From: Chelatococcus sp. HY11
GTDB taxonomy: Bacteria; Pseudomonadota; Alphaproteobacteria; Rhizobiales; Beijerinckiaceae
Assembly: GCF_018398335.1 (NCBI RefSeq)
Contig: NZ_JAHBRX010000002.1
Coordinates: 1,302,001 to 1,366,000, forward strand
Reading direction: 5' to 3'
Length of the DNA: 64,000 nucleotides
The notes beneath the pieces are model-generated. The model made no database searches. It saw only the letters and a program-made list of their open reading frames with translations, and was not told the DNA's origin. The position numbers and the translations under genes were made by a program. Shown piece after piece: positions 36,964-45,255 of the stretch. Every line of letters starts with the position of its first letter. Position 1 is the stretch's first letter.

Positions 36964-37785
36964 TCAGCCTGAAAGTTCGCCAGCGCGGCGTATGGCAGCA
37001 GCCACCGCCTTGCGCATCAATGGTCTCATGCCGTCTTCCGCCATCAGAACCTCGAGCGCGGCCGCGGTCGTTCCGCCGGGCGAAGTCACGTTCTGGCGTA
37101 GCGTGACGGGCGGAAGCGGCGAGTGGAACAGCAACTCGCCTGCGCCCTCCACGGTTGCTCGCGCCAGCCGCTCGGCGACATCGGCTGGGAGCCCCGCATC
37201 CTTGCCCGCTGCGGCCAGGCATTCGACGAGATGGAAAACATAAGCCGGGCCGGAGCCCGACACCGCCGTCACCGCATCGATCAGCCCCTCGTCGTCGAGC
37301 CATTCGACCTTGCCGATGCTGCCGAGCAGGGCATCGGCGGTGGCGCGCTGGACTGCGCTGACGCCCTTGCCTGGCGCCGCCGCTGTGGCGCCGCGTTGCA
37401 CGGCCGCCGGCAGGTTCGGCATGGCGCGTATGATCGCGTTCGCATTGGGCAAGCGCGCCGCGAGATCGGCCAATGTCTTGCCGGCGAGGATCGAGATCAG
37501 CAGCGTCTTCTGGTGGATGAAGGCCTGCACGGCCAGCGCGGCCGTATCGAGCATCTGCGGCTTGGTCGCGAGCACGACGACATCGGCGGGAGGAGTGTCA
37601 GCGGCCGAGGGGTTCAAGCACATTCCCGTTCTCTCGGCGAGTGCGACGATCTCGTCAGAGGGTATGGGGTCGATCAAGCTGATATGCGCGGGATCGATGC
37701 CGATGCGCAGCCAGCCCTCCAGCATCGCGCTGCCCATCCTGCCTGCACCGATCAGGACGAGCGATTGCGGAAGGGAGTTCGACAT
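36964..37785 (-). CDS. proC: Pyrroline-5-carboxylate reductase
   Basis: 273 residues, normal ProC length. It reduces 1-pyrroline-5-carboxylate to proline with NAD(P)H. The N-terminal cofactor motif is LVLIGAGRMGSAMLEGWL; the middle VVVLATKPQ and AIIRAMPNLPAAV, and the C-terminal signature starting VTAVSGSGPAYVFHL, are all family typical. It stands upstream of no other same-strand gene within 400 bp, and follows the two FGE-fold genes on the same strand (99 bp gap). It may be a housekeeping copy or an accessory one linked to imino-acid use. Confidence 0.95.
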   Translation of the reverse strand: MSNSLPQSLVLIGAGRMGSAMLEGWLRIGIDPAHISLIDPIPSDEIVALAERTGMCLNPSAADTPPADVVVLATKPQMLDTAALAVQAFIHQKTLLISILAGKTLADLAARLPNANAIIRAMPNLPAAVQRGATAAAPGKGVSAVQRATADALLGSIGKVEWLDDEGLIDAVTAVSGSGPAYVFHLVECLAAAGKDAGLPADVAERLARATVEGAGELLFHSPLPPVTLRQNVTSPGGTTAAALEVLMAEDGMRPLMRKAVAAAIRRAGELSG

Positions 37786-37884: not shown

Positions 37885-38973
37885 TCAGATTCCGGCCGTG
37901 AACGCGGCCCGGAAACCGATCGCGGGGCTGCGCCTGTTTCCGTCCCCGGCGCCACTGAAAAAGAAGACTCCACCCGCCTTGCGTGAATGCTGGGCGCCGC
38001 CGCGATTGACGATCTTGTCCGCCGCGCCGTTGTTGATGAAGACCTCGTCGCTACCATGTTCCCCGGCATCGCAGGGATAGAGAGCCAGCGCCTTGAGCAA
38101 GTCGGGGATAGCTGTCCCCTCCGTCGTCATTTCATGGAAGGCGCCGAATCGGGTCTGCTCCGACCGGTTCGCGATCTCCGTCGCGACGACGAAATAGCCG
38201 TCTCCGGGCATCTCCGGCGACCATTGCAGGCCGGCACGCGCCTTGCTGTGCCGGTAGTCGTATTTGAGAGTTCCCTGAGAACCCGGCCCGACAAGGCTGC
38301 CGTCCTCCAGGACAGCGCGCCAAGCGGCAGACCCGGGTCCCACGTCGATATCGCCGGCGGCGTCATTGTCCGGGATAACCTGGATCTCGCCATGGGCCGT
38401 TCGGAACCCCGCCACCATCTCCACGACATTGCCGTTGAGATCGTAGATGCCGCTCGCTTCGCGGTTATGGCTCCAGCCGAGCGGGCCGGTTCCCGTCAGC
38501 ACATGGGCACGCCGCTGCTGGTCGTCATGGCTCGACGGGATTGCTTGATAGACGCAATCGCTTTCAGCCTTGCCGAGCCAGTTGTTACCCTCGGGAAAAA
38601 AACCGTTCCTGCGGCACCACAAGGCGATGGCGGCCCACTCGGCATTGGTCATCAGATGCCAACCGCGCCCCTTGGCCCGACAGGTTGAAACCGCCTCGTC
38701 GAAGGTGAGATTCCCCGCCGGATCGCTGGCCGGCAGCGACTGCGCCACGCCGTCCACCAGCACGTTCTGGTATTTCGATATCCAGATCTCGCGCATCGTC
38801 GTGCCGTTCACCACGAAAGCAGGGTGCGGAATGGCCGGCGCGCCCACCATCACCTCGTCCAGGGTGAAGAAGGGAATGCGGACCATGATCGACGGCTGGC
38901 CATGATCGTCCAGCATCGCCTCGTTGTTCGCGGCAAGGGATTTCAGCAGCAGGTTGAAGGCGTCGATCTGCAT
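37885..38973 (-). CDS. FGE/SUMF1-fold (C-type lectin-like) protein, copy B
   Basis: 362 residues from the ATG at 38973; the frame is open much further, inside the neighbouring paralogue. It has the formylglycine-generating-enzyme/SUMF1 fold seen also in diversity-generating-retroelement target proteins: GWHLMTNAEWAAIALWC, GIYDLNGNVVEMVAGF, and a C-terminal IGFRAAF. In the last 40 residues (NRGGAQHSRKAGGVFF) both copper-binding cysteines of true FGE are missing, so formylglycine formation is unlikely. No signal peptide is seen. It is a tandem paralogue of the gene at 39006. Function unknown; ligand or surface recognition is a guess. Confidence 0.8.
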   Translation of the reverse strand: MQIDAFNLLLKSLAANNEAMLDDHGQPSIMVRIPFFTLDEVMVGAPAIPHPAFVVNGTTMREIWISKYQNVLVDGVAQSLPASDPAGNLTFDEAVSTCRAKGRGWHLMTNAEWAAIALWCRRNGFFPEGNNWLGKAESDCVYQAIPSSHDDQQRRAHVLTGTGPLGWSHNREASGIYDLNGNVVEMVAGFRTAHGEIQVIPDNDAAGDIDVGPGSAAWRAVLEDGSLVGPGSQGTLKYDYRHSKARAGLQWSPEMPGDGYFVVATEIANRSEQTRFGAFHEMTTEGTAIPDLLKALALYPCDAGEHGSDEVFINNGAADKIVNRGGAQHSRKAGGVFFFSGAGDGNRRSPAIGFRAAFTAGI

Positions 38974-39005
38974 TGTCGCTTCTTCGGCTCTGGAGAAACC
39001 AAGGC

Positions 39006-40079
39006 TCAGTCGGCACAAGCCGGCGGGATATAGGCACTGCGGAAGCCCATCATGAAGGTTCTCTGGTCCCGCGTCGGCGCCAGATAGAGCGCGAAGACCC
39101 CGCAGCGGGACTGGCGGTTCCAATGGCTGCCACGCATGCAGATGCGTTCCCCGACCGTTTTCACATAGGCGTAGTTGAGGCCGTGATCCCCGGCGTCGGC
39201 AGGAAACAGCGCCAGCGCCTTGAGGCGTTCGGGCAGGGAAACACCCTCCGCCGCGCGCGCGCTCTCGAAGGTAGCGCCGCGCAACTGGTCGGTCGGCTCG
39301 ATGATCGTCCGCGCGAGCGTGATCCGCTCCTCCACGAAATCCAGCTTCAGGCTGCCGGCCGTGCCAGGCACGGCCAGGCTGCCGTCCTCCAGCACGGCGC
39401 GCCATGCGGCCGAACCGGGACTCTGGTCCGCCGCCTCGGCCGCGTCGTTGTCGCGGATCACGTTGATCTCGCCATCGAGGAGGCGGCAGCCGCCGAGCCA
39501 TTCCGCGACATTGCCGTTGAGGTCCCAGATGCCGTCCGCCTGGCCATTATGGCTCCAGCTTGCCGGGCCGGTGCCGGTGCGCACCGCAGCGATGCGCCCT
39601 TCTCCGAACGGCATCTCGCGATGACCCTCGAGATTCTCGAAGGTTGCCGGCATGGCCTGGCGCACCGGATCGCGAAAATCTTTACCGAAATCATTATTGC
39701 CGCGCGGCATCGTGCCGTTGCGTCGGCACCATAGGGCGATGGCAGCCCATTCCGCCGCCGTCATCAGGTGCCAGCCCGGCCCCTTGGCCTCGCAGGCTCG
39801 GCGCGCTTCGTCGAAGGAAACATGGACGCCGGGGTTTTCATCGGGAAGGGAATAGGCGCGCCCGTTCCGCACCACGTTCTGGAACTTGGATATCCAGATC
39901 TCCGGGACAGCGCGCCCGTTGACGATGAAGGCGGGGTGGATATCGGTGCTGCCGCCCTCGATGACGTCGCAGATCCGGAATTGCGGGATGCGTACGAGGA
40001 TGGACGGCTGGTCGCAATCGTCCGAGACGATGGCGTTGTTCGCGGCAAGGGCCTTTAGCGCGAGTTCCGGAGAGATCAT
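39006..40079 (-). CDS. FGE/SUMF1-fold (C-type lectin-like) protein, copy A
   Basis: 357 residues from the ATG at 40079 (ribosome site weak; the frame is open to 40205). It shares with copy B the start (LLLKSLAANN versus ALKALAANN), GWHLMTAAEWAAIALWC, GIWDLNGNVAEWL and SAAWRAVLEDGSL. The C-terminal block RGSHWNRQSRCGVFALYLA ends in MGFRSAY, as in FGE-fold variable domains; the second copper cysteine is kept, while the first is Asn. It lies 32 bp upstream of copy B on the same strand, so they form an operon, and it diverges from the LysR gene at 40295. No reverse transcriptase is present in the window. Confidence 0.8.
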   Translation of the reverse strand: MISPELALKALAANNAIVSDDCDQPSILVRIPQFRICDVIEGGSTDIHPAFIVNGRAVPEIWISKFQNVVRNGRAYSLPDENPGVHVSFDEARRACEAKGPGWHLMTAAEWAAIALWCRRNGTMPRGNNDFGKDFRDPVRQAMPATFENLEGHREMPFGEGRIAAVRTGTGPASWSHNGQADGIWDLNGNVAEWLGGCRLLDGEINVIRDNDAAEAADQSPGSAAWRAVLEDGSLAVPGTAGSLKLDFVEERITLARTIIEPTDQLRGATFESARAAEGVSLPERLKALALFPADAGDHGLNYAYVKTVGERICMRGSHWNRQSRCGVFALYLAPTRDQRTFMMGFRSAYIPPACAD

Positions 40080-40294
40080 GCCTTGTCTCGGGAGCGAGGA
40101 ATGTGCAGCCAGAGAAGTCGGCAGACACCGCCGTGTCCAATACTCATTTGGGATGGGAATTGAGAGGCGGAGCCTATCAATCCTCGCGCGCAGCCTTCTG
40201 CTCAATTGCGAAGCGTCCTTTTTTCCGGCATGTGTCGATCATCCCGGCAGACGGCTGCGGCCGCCGAGGCGCTTCCCGGATAGGATCGACACCG

Positions 40295-41191: not shown

Positions 41192-41215
41192 CCCGTCATT
41201 CATATGACACGGGTC
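41190..41215 (+). terminator. Hairpin after the LysR gene
   Basis: GACCCGTCAT and ATGACACGGGTC form a stem of about ten base pairs with a two-base bulge and a TCAT loop, starting at the LysR stop. It may end the lysR transcript before the transporter operon; a T-rich but interrupted stretch follows. Confidence 0.45.
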
Positions 41216-41295
41216 TGAATTCTCTTCCTCAATCAGTATTGGACACTTGACGACGCATCTCTCAGCTTTCGTGCAACTCAACACGGGGAGCGACG

Positions 41296-42174
41296 ATGAA
41301 CGTCACTGACAAGAACGATCCAGCCATCCCGCGCCGCCGCGCCCTCACGATGCTCGCCGCCGCCGGCCTCGGCCTCGCCGTGGGGACGCTGTCCCCCGCC
41401 TTTGCCCAGACGGCGGCTGACCTCCTGCCCGCGGAACTGCGCCAGCGCGGCACGCTGAACGTCGCCACGTCCATGGTGCAGCCGCCCTATTCCTTCGAGA
41501 CCGCCGAAGGCGCCCCGGCCGGGATCGATATCGAGCTGATGCAGGCCATCGGCAAGGAGCTCGGGCTGCAGGTCAAGTTCACGAAGATTGCCTTCGCCTC
41601 GATCATTCCGGGCATCGAAAACGGCCGCTTCGACGTAGGCGCCAACGAGATCGCCGATACCGAAGAACGCCGCAAGGTCGTGCAGTTCGTCGACTACTAC
41701 AGGGTGACCTACGGCGTGCTCGCTACCGCCGGCACCAAGGGGCTGTCTTCCGCCAATCTCTGCGGTGGCCATTTCGCCGTGACGCATGGCAGCGCCCAGG
41801 TCGTGCTGCTGGAGACCATGTCGGCGGAGTGCGAGAAGGCCGGCAAGCCGGCGATCCGTCGCAGCGTCTTCCCCGACAGCGCCACCGCCAAGCTCGCGGT
41901 CTCGAACGCCCGCGCCCAGGCCTTCGTTTCCGACAAGGGCACGGCGACTTATCTCGCCAAGATCCCGGAGAACAATTTCTCCCTGCTCGAGGGCGACATC
42001 CCCAACATGGAGCAGATCGCCGGCTTCGCCATCGCCCGGAACCGCGGCGATCTTGCCAATGCGGTGAAGAAGGCGCTTCAGAATCTCGCCGCCAATGGCG
42101 AATACAAGCGCATCCTGGAAAAATACCAAGTCTACCCGGCCAGGCTCGAAGCCTTCACAATCGACGGAAAATGA
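41296..42174 (+). CDS. Amino-acid-type ABC transporter substrate-binding protein
   Basis: 292 residues. The start contains a twin-arginine-like signal (PRRRALTMLAAAGLGLAVG, cleaved near AFAQT). The mature part is a family 3 binding protein: LNVATSMVQPPYSFETAEG and FDVGANEIADTEERRKVVQFVDYY. It is coupled to the permease (ATGA overlap). It differs clearly from the two binding proteins of the first cluster. Confidence 0.93.
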   Translation: MNVTDKNDPAIPRRRALTMLAAAGLGLAVGTLSPAFAQTAADLLPAELRQRGTLNVATSMVQPPYSFETAEGAPAGIDIELMQAIGKELGLQVKFTKIAFASIIPGIENGRFDVGANEIADTEERRKVVQFVDYYRVTYGVLATAGTKGLSSANLCGGHFAVTHGSAQVVLLETMSAECEKAGKPAIRRSVFPDSATAKLAVSNARAQAFVSDKGTATYLAKIPENNFSLLEGDIPNMEQIAGFAIARNRGDLANAVKKALQNLAANGEYKRILEKYQVYPARLEAFTIDGK

Positions 42175-43058
42175 CCATGGCCACAGCCTCCCACTCCGCC
42201 GCGGCATGGCCCGTGGCGGCCGCTTCGCTCGACGCCGCGAACGCCGTCTACCGCGGCAGACCTCAGCAGATCGCCGGAGCGGTCGGCGTTGGGCTGTTCC
42301 TCTGCTGGATCGCCTATCAGCTGGTCACCAACGCAGCCTTCCGCTGGCACGTGGTCGGCGAGTACATCTTCAGCGCGCCCGTTCTGGCGGGCGTGCAGAT
42401 GACGCTGTTCCTGACCTTTCTGACCTTGCTGCTCGGCAGCCTTCTTGGCATCGCGCTCGCGGTCATGCGCCTGTCGCACAACCCGATCCTGAACATGAGC
42501 GCCTCAGCCTATGTCTGGTTCTTCCGCGGCGTACCGAGCCTGGTGCAGTTGATATTCTGGTTTAATTTCGCCTCGCTCTTTCCGACGATCGAGCTCGGCA
42601 TTCCCTTCGGCGGACCAAAGCTCCTCTCGATCGCCACCAATGACGCCGTTACGCCGTTGGTTGCGGCGCTGCTTGGTCTCGGGCTGGTCGAGGCCGCCTA
42701 TATGGGCGAGATCATCCGGGGCGGCATCCTGTCGGTCGATGCCGGGCAGGTCGATGCCAGCCGGGCGCTCGGGATGAAGCCGTTCTATCGCCTGCGCCGG
42801 ATCATCCTGCCGCAGGCCATGCGCTCGATCATTCCCTCCGCCAGCAACCAGTTCATCAGCCTGCTGAAATGGACGGCGCTCGCCAGCGTCGTCTCGCTGG
42901 GAGAACTGCTCCTGGCGACCCAGACCATCTATAACCGCAACTTCCAGGTCATCCCGCTGCTCACCGTGGCGGCCCTCTGGTACCTCCTGCTGACCTCCAT
43001 CTTCACGCTGGTTCAGATGCGGATCGAGGCTTATTTCTCGCGGGGACACCGCCGATGA
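42171..43058 (+). CDS. Amino-acid ABC transporter permease
   Basis: 295 residues from an ATG overlapping the previous stop (an ATG two codons later is an alternative). It has a longer N-terminal region of about 50 residues before the first family helix. The channel part shows VWFFRGVPSLVQLIFWFNF and the EAA-like loop GGILSVDAGQVDASRALGMK, as in HisM/GlnP proteins. Confidence 0.94.
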   Translation: MTMATASHSAAAWPVAAASLDAANAVYRGRPQQIAGAVGVGLFLCWIAYQLVTNAAFRWHVVGEYIFSAPVLAGVQMTLFLTFLTLLLGSLLGIALAVMRLSHNPILNMSASAYVWFFRGVPSLVQLIFWFNFASLFPTIELGIPFGGPKLLSIATNDAVTPLVAALLGLGLVEAAYMGEIIRGGILSVDAGQVDASRALGMKPFYRLRRIILPQAMRSIIPSASNQFISLLKWTALASVVSLGELLLATQTIYNRNFQVIPLLTVAALWYLLLTSIFTLVQMRIEAYFSRGHRR

Positions 43059-43852
43059 GCGTCTCGCAGGCTGCGGCAGCCGACATGGCTGCCACGGGCG
43101 TCGTTCACGCCCGCAATGTCAAGAAATCATTCGGCCCGGTCGAGGTGCTCAAGGACATCAATCTCACCGTGGCCGCCGGCGAAGTGGTGACGCTGCTCGG
43201 CCCCTCGGGCTCGGGCAAGAGCACGCTCCTGCGCTGCATCAACCATCTGGAGAAGATCGACGCCGGCCTCCTGCTCGTCCATGGCGAGCCTATCGGCTAC
43301 CGCATCCGAGACGGGCGGCTGGTGGAACTCGACGAAAGCCAGGTCTGTGAGCAGCGCGTCGAAGTCGGCATGGTCTTCCAGAACTTCAACTTGTTTCCGC
43401 ACATGACGGTGCTGCAGAACATCATCGATGCGCCGGTCCGGGTGCGTGGCGAGCGCAAGGCCGATGCCGTTGCCCATGCGATGGACTTGCTCCAGCGCGT
43501 CGGCCTGCTGGAAAAGGCGGATGCCTATCCGCGCACGCTTTCCGGCGGGCAGCAGCAGCGCGTCGCCATCGCACGGGCCTTGGCGATGAAGCCGAAGCTC
43601 CTGCTGTTCGACGAGCCGACATCGGCGCTCGATCCCGAACTCGTGGGCGAGGTGCTGAACGTCATCGAGCAGGTGGCCGCCACCGGCATCACCATCATGA
43701 TCGTGACCCACGAGATCGGCTTCGCCCGCAAGATCTCGCATCGCGTGATCTTCATGGCCGACGGGCAGATCGTCGAAAGCGGCCCGCCGGCTCAGGTCAT
43801 CGAAAACCCGCGCGAGGCGCGCACCAGGGCCTTCCTAGCCGAAGTGCTCTGA
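43055..43852 (+). CDS. Amino-acid ABC transporter ATP-binding protein
   Basis: 265 residues; overlaps the permease by four bases. Walker [14 protein letters not shown], signature [15 protein letters not shown], Walker [25 protein letters not shown]. It completes the importer with the products at 41296 and 42171. Confidence 0.96.
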   Translation: MSVSQAAAADMAATGVVHARNVKKSFGPVEVLKDINLTVAAGEVVTLLGPSGSGKSTLLRCINHLEKIDAGLLLVHGEPIGYRIRDGRLVELDESQVCEQRVEVGMVFQNFNLFPHMTVLQNIIDAPVRVRGERKADAVAHAMDLLQRVGLLEKADAYPRTLSGGQQQRVAIARALAMKPKLLLFDEPTSALDPELVGEVLNVIEQVAATGITIMIVTHEIGFARKISHRVIFMADGQIVESGPPAQVIENPREARTRAFLAEVL

Positions 43853-43903: not shown

Positions 43904-44260
43904 ATGCCCCAATTTGGCCGCGACGACCCGTCCTACGATATTGCCGATCTCCGGGATTACGACCTGCCCCCGGAGGCGCCCGCGCTGGCGCAAGGGCTCT
44001 TCCGCTTCAACGGCATCAACCTGCGCCATTGCGTGATAGAGAACGGCGCAACCGATTGGCTCCGTCACGTCGACAGCGACGCTCTCTTCCAGGTGCTCGA
44101 CGGGGAGCTCCTCGTCGACCTGCGTCTGCCCGACGATGCAGGCATCCGCAACATCGTCGTGAAGGCCGGTCAGGTGATCTCCATCCATGCCGGCGTGGAG
44201 CATCGCACCTATTCCCATGGGCGTGCCGTGCTCCTCGTCATGGATGCTCTCGCAGCCTGA
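43904..44260 (+). CDS. Small cupin-domain protein
   Basis: 118 residues, one cupin barrel. Motif 1 is around WLRHVDSDALFQVLDGELLV and motif 2 around VISIHAGVEHRTYS, with histidines placed to bind a metal. It is similar in size to small cupins that act as mutarotases, isomerases or ligand sensors. It lies between the importer and the DapA-type gene and so may process the imported compound. A specific activity cannot be assigned. Confidence 0.82.
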   Translation: MPQFGRDDPSYDIADLRDYDLPPEAPALAQGLFRFNGINLRHCVIENGATDWLRHVDSDALFQVLDGELLVDLRLPDDAGIRNIVVKAGQVISIHAGVEHRTYSHGRAVLLVMDALAA

Positions 44261-44349
44261 AGCACGTGGCGCTGCAACGGCCGGTGCTCCCTCGTCTTCC
44301 TCACCGCGCCTTCCGGCCGCATTCTCATCGCCAACGAGAAAGCCCTTCC

Positions 44350-45255
44350 ATGCTCACGTCCCGCCAGCTGTGCGGCATCTTCCCCGCCATTCCCACCTTG
44401 GTCGATACGGATGACCGCATCGATGCGACAGCCGTTTACACCCTGTTTTCCTGGCTGAAGCGAGGCGGCATCGACGGCGTCCTGCCCGTCGGCGGCACCG
44501 GTGAATATGGCGCCCTTGCCCGCGCCGAGCGCATCCGTATGGCACGATTGTCGGTCGAGGCGATGGCCGGCACGGGCCCGGTCATCGCGGGCGTTCTGGA
44601 TACCGGATATCACGATGCCCTGCAGGCCGTAGGGGAGTTTGCGGCCGAAGGCGTCGACGCTGCCCTCGTCCTCACGCCCTATTACACCAACCCCACTCAG
44701 GCCGGTATCCGCGACTATTTCCTGCGGCTCGCGGATGCTTCCCCGATCCCGGTCCTGATCTACGAGATCCCATACCGGACCCGCATCGCCGTCGAGCCGC
44801 GGATCGTGCATGAACTGTCGCGTCATCCCAACATCATCGGCATGAAGGCGTGCAATCTCGACATGTACCACTTTCTGCAGGTGGTGGCTGGCGTGAGCGA
44901 CGATTTCACCGTGCTCAGCGGCGAGGACAGCCTGTTCCCGCTCCACATGGCCGCTGGTGCAAAGGGGGGCATCCTGGTGACGGCGAGCTTGCTGCCGCGC
45001 GCCTGGCGCGGCATCTTCGACGCGGCTGCGGCGGGCCGCACGGCCGAAGCCCTGTCGCTGCATCGCGAGCTGATCCCGATGATGAATCTGGCTTTCGCGG
45101 AAACCAACCCTGGCCCCATGAAGTCCGTGATCGACCTGATCGGCGTATCTGCGCCGCGTATGCTCGCACCTTTGGTCGATGCCGCGCCCGCGCTTTCGAA
45201 AGCTTTCCGCGCGGAGGTCTCGCGGTTTCTCATACGAACGGAAGCATCCCCGTAA
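44350..45255 (+). CDS. Dihydrodipicolinate synthase (DapA)-family aldolase/lyase
   Basis: 301 residues from the ATG at 44350; the longer frame overlaps the cupin gene. The Schiff-base lysine is Lys166 (IGMKACN), the conserved tyrosine Tyr138 (IYEIPYRT), and the carboxylate loop is GGTGE at 48-52, closer to the classical GTTGE than in the paralogue at 14379. It probably cleaves or forms a 2-oxo acid derived from the imported substrate. It is the last intact gene of the operon; a truncated oxidase follows. Confidence 0.92.
   Translation: MLTSRQLCGIFPAIPTLVDTDDRIDATAVYTLFSWLKRGGIDGVLPVGGTGEYGALARAERIRMARLSVEAMAGTGPVIAGVLDTGYHDALQAVGEFAAEGVDAALVLTPYYTNPTQAGIRDYFLRLADASPIPVLIYEIPYRTRIAVEPRIVHELSRHPNIIGMKACNLDMYHFLQVVAGVSDDFTVLSGEDSLFPLHMAAGAKGGILVTASLLPRAWRGIFDAAAAGRTAEALSLHRELIPMMNLAFAETNPGPMKSVIDLIGVSAPRMLAPLVDAAPALSKAFRAEVSRFLIRTEASP

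Follow-up and report, generated by a model that had tools for sequence, protein, structure and literature searches.

Two tandem genes of Chelatococcus sp. HY11, here called VP1 and VP2, encode proteins that almost certainly belong to the TaqVP type of variable proteins, the targets of diversity-generating retroelements (DGRs), and our searches of the surrounding DNA and of the genome found no DGR. We favour, with a probability of roughly 0.55, the reading that they are domesticated ("retired") DGR variable proteins of fixed specificity that are kept by the host, and we give about even odds to a domesticated function of the pair. The window referred to below is the whole 64,000-nucleotide stretch of DNA that was analysed.

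VP1 (39006..40079, minus strand, 357 aa) and VP2 (37885..38973, minus strand, 362 aa) are separated by 32 nt and share 47% protein identity; both open reading frames are intact, and the first-pass annotation had placed the tandem exactly, at 37885-40079. In sequence searches, both proteins gave near end-to-end matches to phrog_2889 (E 1.2e-111 for VP1 and 5.5e-96 for VP2), a phage family without assigned function in PHROGs, and full-length matches to PDB 5vf4 (E 1.2e-56 and 4.9e-50, respectively), the sole strong PDB sequence match of each. This structure is TaqVP, the variable protein of a DGR in a Thermus aquaticus prophage (PMC6328139). Structure prediction, which had been proposed as a check, took the window proteins and retrieved relatives as input and yielded models with a pLDDT of 94.7 (VP1) and 92.7 (VP2). 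By both Foldseek and VIA-align, TaqVP was the top match of either model by a wide margin (VIA-align Z 51.2, 1.7 Å over 342 residues for VP1; Z 52.3, 2.3 Å over 352 residues for VP2), followed by TvpA, PvdO, CalU17, CarF, FGE, Mtd and EgtB at Z ~10-14, and the best match in the viral library was a phage protein, 43% identical. The models, the VIA-align comparisons and the alignment of the variable region (VR) place both proteins in the FGE subtype of the C-type-lectin fold, with a C-terminal VR. Alignment with DGR-linked relatives locates the former VR at residues 312-350 of VP1 (39030..39146, minus strand) and its equivalent at residues 320-358 of VP2 (37900..38016, minus strand). The resemblance to lectin-fold DGR targets that the first-pass annotation had noticed is therefore one of real homology, within the TaqVP family.

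Relatives of the pair are widely found as DGR targets. A tblastn search with VP1 gave 54 matches among 50,697 phage records, and relatives gathered by two short peptide patterns per scan comprised 80 genome-contig and 80 viral loci, each the best 80 of 94. Among these loci, many show the order VP-Avd-TR-RT (TR, template repeat; RT, reverse transcriptase), a cassette carried by phages such as Faecalibacterium phage Lagaffe and Pseudomonas phage Bise. A second VR copy was present within the same locus for 84 VR rows, again from the best 80 of 94 loci per scan; with symmetric, unfiltered scoring, 1041 of 1164 VR/TR mismatches fell at a template A and 28 at an A in the VR copy, with 11 of the 84 rows having at least seven mismatches and less than 80% of them at A, and two rows fewer than seven. 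We prefer this count to that of a scoring that favours A and retains only rows in which A accounts for 80% or more of the mismatches (989/1025). The DGR target of Lagaffe is reported to belong to the FGE superfamily (PMC5883640), and some phage DGRs have two lectin-fold targets that differ from each other (PMC10743442). The targets of Lagaffe and Bise share 42% identity with VP1 over >90% of its length and the same architecture, but they are tail-module genes adjoined by Avd and RT. Similarly, TaqVP is like VP1 and VP2 in full-length sequence and fold, in its C-terminal VR position and in lacking the FGE triad, whereas it lies beside a TR, Avd and RT in a prophage, and VP1 and VP2 form a tandem among non-phage neighbours where none of these was found. 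Two other arrangements were seen in passing: a cassette on an Ideonella plasmid (L192:7911-13127) carries, by its annotation, a single VP-type gene together with two genes each for Avd and reverse transcriptase, and a Ruminococcus MAG contig (L055) carries two TaqVP-family genes ~7 kb apart, the repeats between their ends being without A bias.

The tandem probably arose by duplication, as had been supposed from the sequence: a tree of 143 relatives joins VP1 and VP2 as a sister pair with an SH-aLRT support of 98 (96 in a smaller set), in a clade that consists mostly of Bacillota and viral rows and stands apart from the alphaproteobacterial members. Their end branches measure 0.80 (VP1) and 1.22 (VP2), against a median of 0.21. 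When placed singly, both fell into one and the same group of 28 rows, with supports of 67 and 93; this argues against a pure long-branch artefact.

The alternative that survives best is that the pair is prophage debris, the last remnant of a lost phage, without host function and not yet decayed; we consider it rather unlikely. Almost all relatives that have been described are proteins of phages or DGRs, as it would require, and an independent TaqVP-family tandem pair in a Candidatus Hydrogenedentes MAG (L077:7932-10115), which like VP1/VP2 has neither RT nor TR, sits directly behind phage tail genes, unlike the pair described here. Against debris speaks the state of the two genes. Both frames are open after long divergence, and of 54 core columns with a conservation of 90% or more among 46 relatives, VP1 and VP2 each keep 52, within the 85.5-100% kept by these relatives in a leave-one-out comparison; in the 244 other columns the majority residue is matched in 120 (VP1) and 94 (VP2). 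Between the two genes, the differences at the three codon positions are 0.33/0.29/0.54 in the core, as would be expected under purifying selection, and 0.61/0.54/0.63 in the VR. A simulation of neutral drift gave a mean of 6.2 expected stops, with some runs at zero. The third-position GC content (0.81 for VP1 and 0.79 for VP2; 0.71-0.86 for seven neighbours) shows that their codon usage is host-like.

The VRs bear more ambiguously on debris. In the window pair the VR is less conserved than the core: VP1 and VP2 share a VR identity of 0.31, a value that is this low in only 3 of the 791 DGR pairs with similar core identity, and they agree at 12 of 43 positions in the VR alignment. An active DGR with one template would give a common VR scaffold, and the two faces have therefore long evolved apart. 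Drift has reached even scaffold positions, as debris would predict, and VP2 has lost a scaffold Trp, which leans towards either relaxation or a new use. Divergent VRs and the lost Trp thus also fit relaxation; with one genome at hand, the VRs may be read as specialised or as relaxed, and the core constraint may date from phage life.

The surroundings of the pair also speak against debris. No phage gene was seen among ten neighbouring proteins, all of which are metabolic, transport or regulatory. Seventeen tail queries had no match in the window, which is a weak test, as 37 of 105 loci with 5 kb of upstream DNA also lack a tail homologue. On one side, 99 bp downstream of VP1-VP2, lies a proC-type pyrroline-5-carboxylate reductase gene (36964..37785, minus strand; TIGR00112 above cut-off), probably part of one operon with the pair, and that side of the window also holds an NMT1-type ABC system, a rhodanese and a luciferase-like monooxygenase. 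On the other side, divergent from VP1, the LysR-type regulator that the first-pass annotation had named is borne out by PF00126 and PF03466 (40295..41191, plus strand), and it is followed by an amino-acid-type ABC transporter of binding protein, permease and ATPase (41296..43852, plus strand). Beyond the transporter, at 43904-45255, lie a 118-aa open reading frame without an NCBIfam match and then a DHDPS-family gene. By eye the 118-aa product is cupin-like. Together with proC, these two genes are reminiscent of proline or hydroxyproline breakdown.

The LysR gene is flanked on both sides by inverted arms of 49 nt. One arm (40133..40181, minus strand; dyad ATTGA-N13-TCAAT) lies 54-102 bp upstream of the VP1 ATG, and the other (41198..41246, plus strand; dyad ATTCA-N13-TGAAT) lies 50-98 bp upstream of the binding-protein ATG, just ahead of the transporter. 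These operator-like elements stand at nearly equal distances from their start codons and share 36 of 49 bases (score 23), and the one arm position of the dyad that differs between them is changed in a way that preserves the symmetry. The highest score among 5000 Markov pairs was 16, and a score of 23 was reached by 1 of 4938 real window pairs and, with the locus left out, by 10 of 20000, with scores up to 53. The dyad ATTSA-N13-TSAAT, a pattern built post hoc, occurs in the window only at these two elements, with 0.05 occurrences expected from 60 shuffles. The element common to VP1 and the transporter, which would hardly be expected of debris, is a candidate LysR operator that may serve both operons. 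A scan for consensus promoters gave no promoter-like match, and a tRNA scan found nothing. A transposon with LysR as cargo was rejected; inspection by eye showed no target-site duplication, and the arms would suit two promoters that face outwards.

Debris gains some support from the distribution of the pair, which was surveyed with one genome per species and with the best five to six candidates at most scored per genome. In the family survey (397 genomes, the best five candidates at most for each), a full-length match was found in the Chelatococcus sp. HY11 genome only, and three further genomes gave weak partial matches; the order survey (397 genomes) and the class survey (385 genomes) each added one further carrier. 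Of these carriers, G646 has Avd, TR and RT, and G1068 has no RT within 15 kb. As for the neighbourhood, in three congeners the LysR gene had no counterpart beyond a 37-base match, and the LysR protein had no match at E 1e-60 or better among the best six candidates at most in each family genome. Matches to proC in the congeners reach 69-71% over part of the gene, and a Bosea plasmid has a proC with 89.5% protein identity, but its neighbours differ, and neither a VP gene nor a dyad of the ATTSA-N13-TSAAT type was found at that locus.

A second alternative, which we consider distinctly improbable, is that VP1 and VP2 are enzymes in which an FGE-type pocket has been reused catalytically in the neighbouring amino-acid pathway, as in CalU17, PvdO and ToxD, which are FGE-fold members of biosynthetic pathways. 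The fold matches to CalU17, PvdO, CarF and FGE (Z 12-14) and the metabolic neighbours agree with it, as does an RT-less relative in Serratia marcescens 106R (L088:3926-10074), whose TaqVP-family gene has a TIM-barrel gene on one side and an amino-acid-dehydrogenase-like gene on the other, the latter following a polyketide-synthase-like gene. The likeness to FGE is limited. The SUMF1/FGE core claimed for the pair rests on a common fold (Z ~12 over ~180 residues) and on weak, partial matches to Pfam PF03781 (FGE/SUMF1) of 25.0 bits for VP1 and 27.2 for VP2, with a cut-off of 23.3, but TaqVP is far closer, at Z 51-52, and the proteins are homologues of TaqVP rather than degenerate FGEs. Residues D348 and N351 of TaqVP superpose on Ser333 and Cys336 of human FGE, and a close equivalent of Cys341 is absent from TaqVP (PMC6328139). 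Counting the register from the invariant Trp after TaqVP D348, supported by the alignment, we found the places of Ser333 and Cys336 taken by His319 and Arg322 in VP1 and by Ala327 and Ser330 in VP2, so that neither protein has an equivalent of Cys336. The first-pass annotation had described the catalytic copper cysteines as lacking, with one cysteine left at the site in one protein and none in the other. Their absence stands, as does the count, with C326 at the site in VP1 and no Cys among the last 61 residues of VP2, but C326 falls one residue short of where Cys341 would lie without a gap, and VP1 has further cysteines nearby at C314 and C355. FGE was moreover the wrong baseline: because TaqVP is without the triad too, the missing cysteines are a trait of the TaqVP family. 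A degenerate FGE is thus ruled out, the pair having no copper site and lying far closer to TaqVP, and the site residues that differ between VP1 and VP2, within VRs of 12/43 identity, are unlike a common active site. EgtB-type sulfoxide synthases have an N-terminal DinB-type domain with iron-binding histidines. Pfam reports no second domain in VP1 or VP2, and their match to EgtB is limited to the lectin-fold part. The name "SUMF1/EgtB/PvdO family nonheme iron enzyme", which public records give to relatives, is misleading here, as this pair lacks the two FGE copper-site cysteines. The Chelatococcus genome holds a separate, strong PF03781 protein (283 bits), with two site cysteines by eye.

Our searches found no machinery for diversification. 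The genome (6.95 Mb) gave a single match to PF00078 (RT), a partial group II intron reverse transcriptase at C3:133804-134211 whose match to the group II intron RT model falls below cut-off, and the DGR RT of phage Bise matched the same place only. No DGR RT was found in the window, and two Avd queries had no match there; the statement that no reverse transcriptase is present holds for the window and, apart from the intron fragment, for the genome in both searches. The template repeat that the first-pass annotation had proposed to look for did not appear: the VP1 VR had no second copy in the whole genome, and neither VR had one in the 64-kb window. Nor was there an AAY footprint. Of the codons in the ten template-Asn columns, 6 in VP1 and 5 in VP2 have C or T in the third position; the gene-wide fractions are 0.61 and 0.58. 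A live DGR was rejected, as the genome searches gave no DGR RT, no TR was found in the genome for VP1 or in the window for VP2, and there is no AAY footprint; the ongoing diversification entertained earlier is not borne out. Diversification in trans, by a DGR that an infecting phage brings or that lies on a replicon absent from the assembly, is most improbable. In its favour, remote DGR targets are known (PMC7517822, PMC8144416, the latter a global survey whose own method misses them) and the genome is 99.4% complete and not closed in one piece, but the VP1 VR matched only itself and chance-level sequences in it, the footprint is absent, and scaffold columns differ too, with 16/24 (VP1) and 11/24 (VP2) matching the template consensus. 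Elsewhere, C1 carries a prophage region (139000-158000) with terminase, portal, baseplate, tail-fibre-like and sheath genes and the only baseplate-J match of the genome; nothing ties it to VP1/VP2.

The pair is not alone in lacking a retroelement. We call a locus an orphan when it matches neither of two DGR RT queries and has no TR in the available DNA, a definition under which viral contigs may carry an RT elsewhere. Among the best 80 of 94 loci per scan, 42 of 101 with at least 3 kb of downstream DNA (43 VP entries) had neither RT nor TR. Of these 42, 27 have 5 kb or more of upstream DNA, and a tail-gene homologue was present in 10 of them and absent in 17, which is a weak test on the baseline given above. 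Pfam searches on 17 proteins of eight RT-less loci, and on three of L188, revealed chromosomal-looking neighbours at several: an M29 peptidase and an aldehyde dehydrogenase (L062), DUF1846 and a transglutaminase (L063), an aldo-keto reductase and a radical SAM protein (L065), MatE and FtsX (L043), ABC/FtsX (L044) and the dehydrogenase and polyketide-synthase-like proteins of L088 given above. The neighbours are DNA methylases at L051 and L083 and are without Pfam matches at L188, and these three loci may be of phage origin.

In some orphans conservation is higher in the VR than in the core. This was so in 29 of 32 pairs from six RT-less clades that were picked after the tree and the VR alignment had been seen, and some of whose members have too little downstream DNA to be called RT-less; clades A-D contributed 28 of 28 pairs, clade E 1 of 3 and clade F 0 of 1. 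Groups with this pattern, likewise picked after inspection, are L045/L051/L065, L062/L070, L063/L066/L076 and a Clostridia group (L043/L044/L050/L057/L059/L061/L064) in which it holds for 21 of 21 pairs, with means of 0.84 against 0.67, two of its seven members having too little downstream DNA for an RT-less call. Without selection, the VR was the more conserved part in 17 of 42 orphan rows and in 68 of 386 DGR-linked rows.

A parallel is known from cyanobacteria, in which remote variable proteins and their paralogues, such as Nostoc all3226, are DGR-type lectin-fold proteins away from an RT, and the authors suggest that the machinery was removed after an optimal variant had been selected (PMC7517822). 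These cyanobacterial genomes, as described there, carry or carried DGRs and retain remnants of TR-VR homology, and their proteins often have several domains (PMC7517822), whereas VP1 and VP2 are single-domain proteins of the TaqVP type in a genome where no DGR was found. Judged by title and start of the abstract, our literature searches turned up no work on TaqVP-type proteins fixed outside DGRs. The family of DGR targets is already known; what is possibly new is that TaqVP-type proteins occur without an RT, in tandem and perhaps under host regulation.

For domesticated proteins of fixed specificity, the reading that we prefer, we propose the following course. The ancestor would have been a TaqVP-family phage receptor-binding protein with a C-terminal face diversified by a DGR, and the gene would have reached the host without the retroelement or lost it afterwards. 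Tandem duplication would then have produced VP1 and VP2, which would now stand behind a LysR-linked promoter, beside a cassette of amino-acid uptake and proC. LysR may sense a co-inducer, upon which VP1 and VP2 would be made together with the amino-acid uptake system, and the fixed lectin-fold scaffold would present two different C-terminal faces to ligands. Control by LysR, expression, ligand binding and upkeep by the host rather than by a lost phage are all inferred from the arrangement and conservation of the genes.

More tentatively, and with less confidence than in the domestication of this pair, bacteria may repeatedly capture hypervariable phage binders, drop the mutator and fix the specificity; VP1/VP2 would then be an example, placed under a LysR operator that also serves an amino-acid transporter. 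DGR targets have mostly been studied during their scrambling. Intact members without an RT make it possible to ask about the later fate of such a binder: whether it persists as a normal protein of the host, its face now fixed, and which ligand it would then bind.
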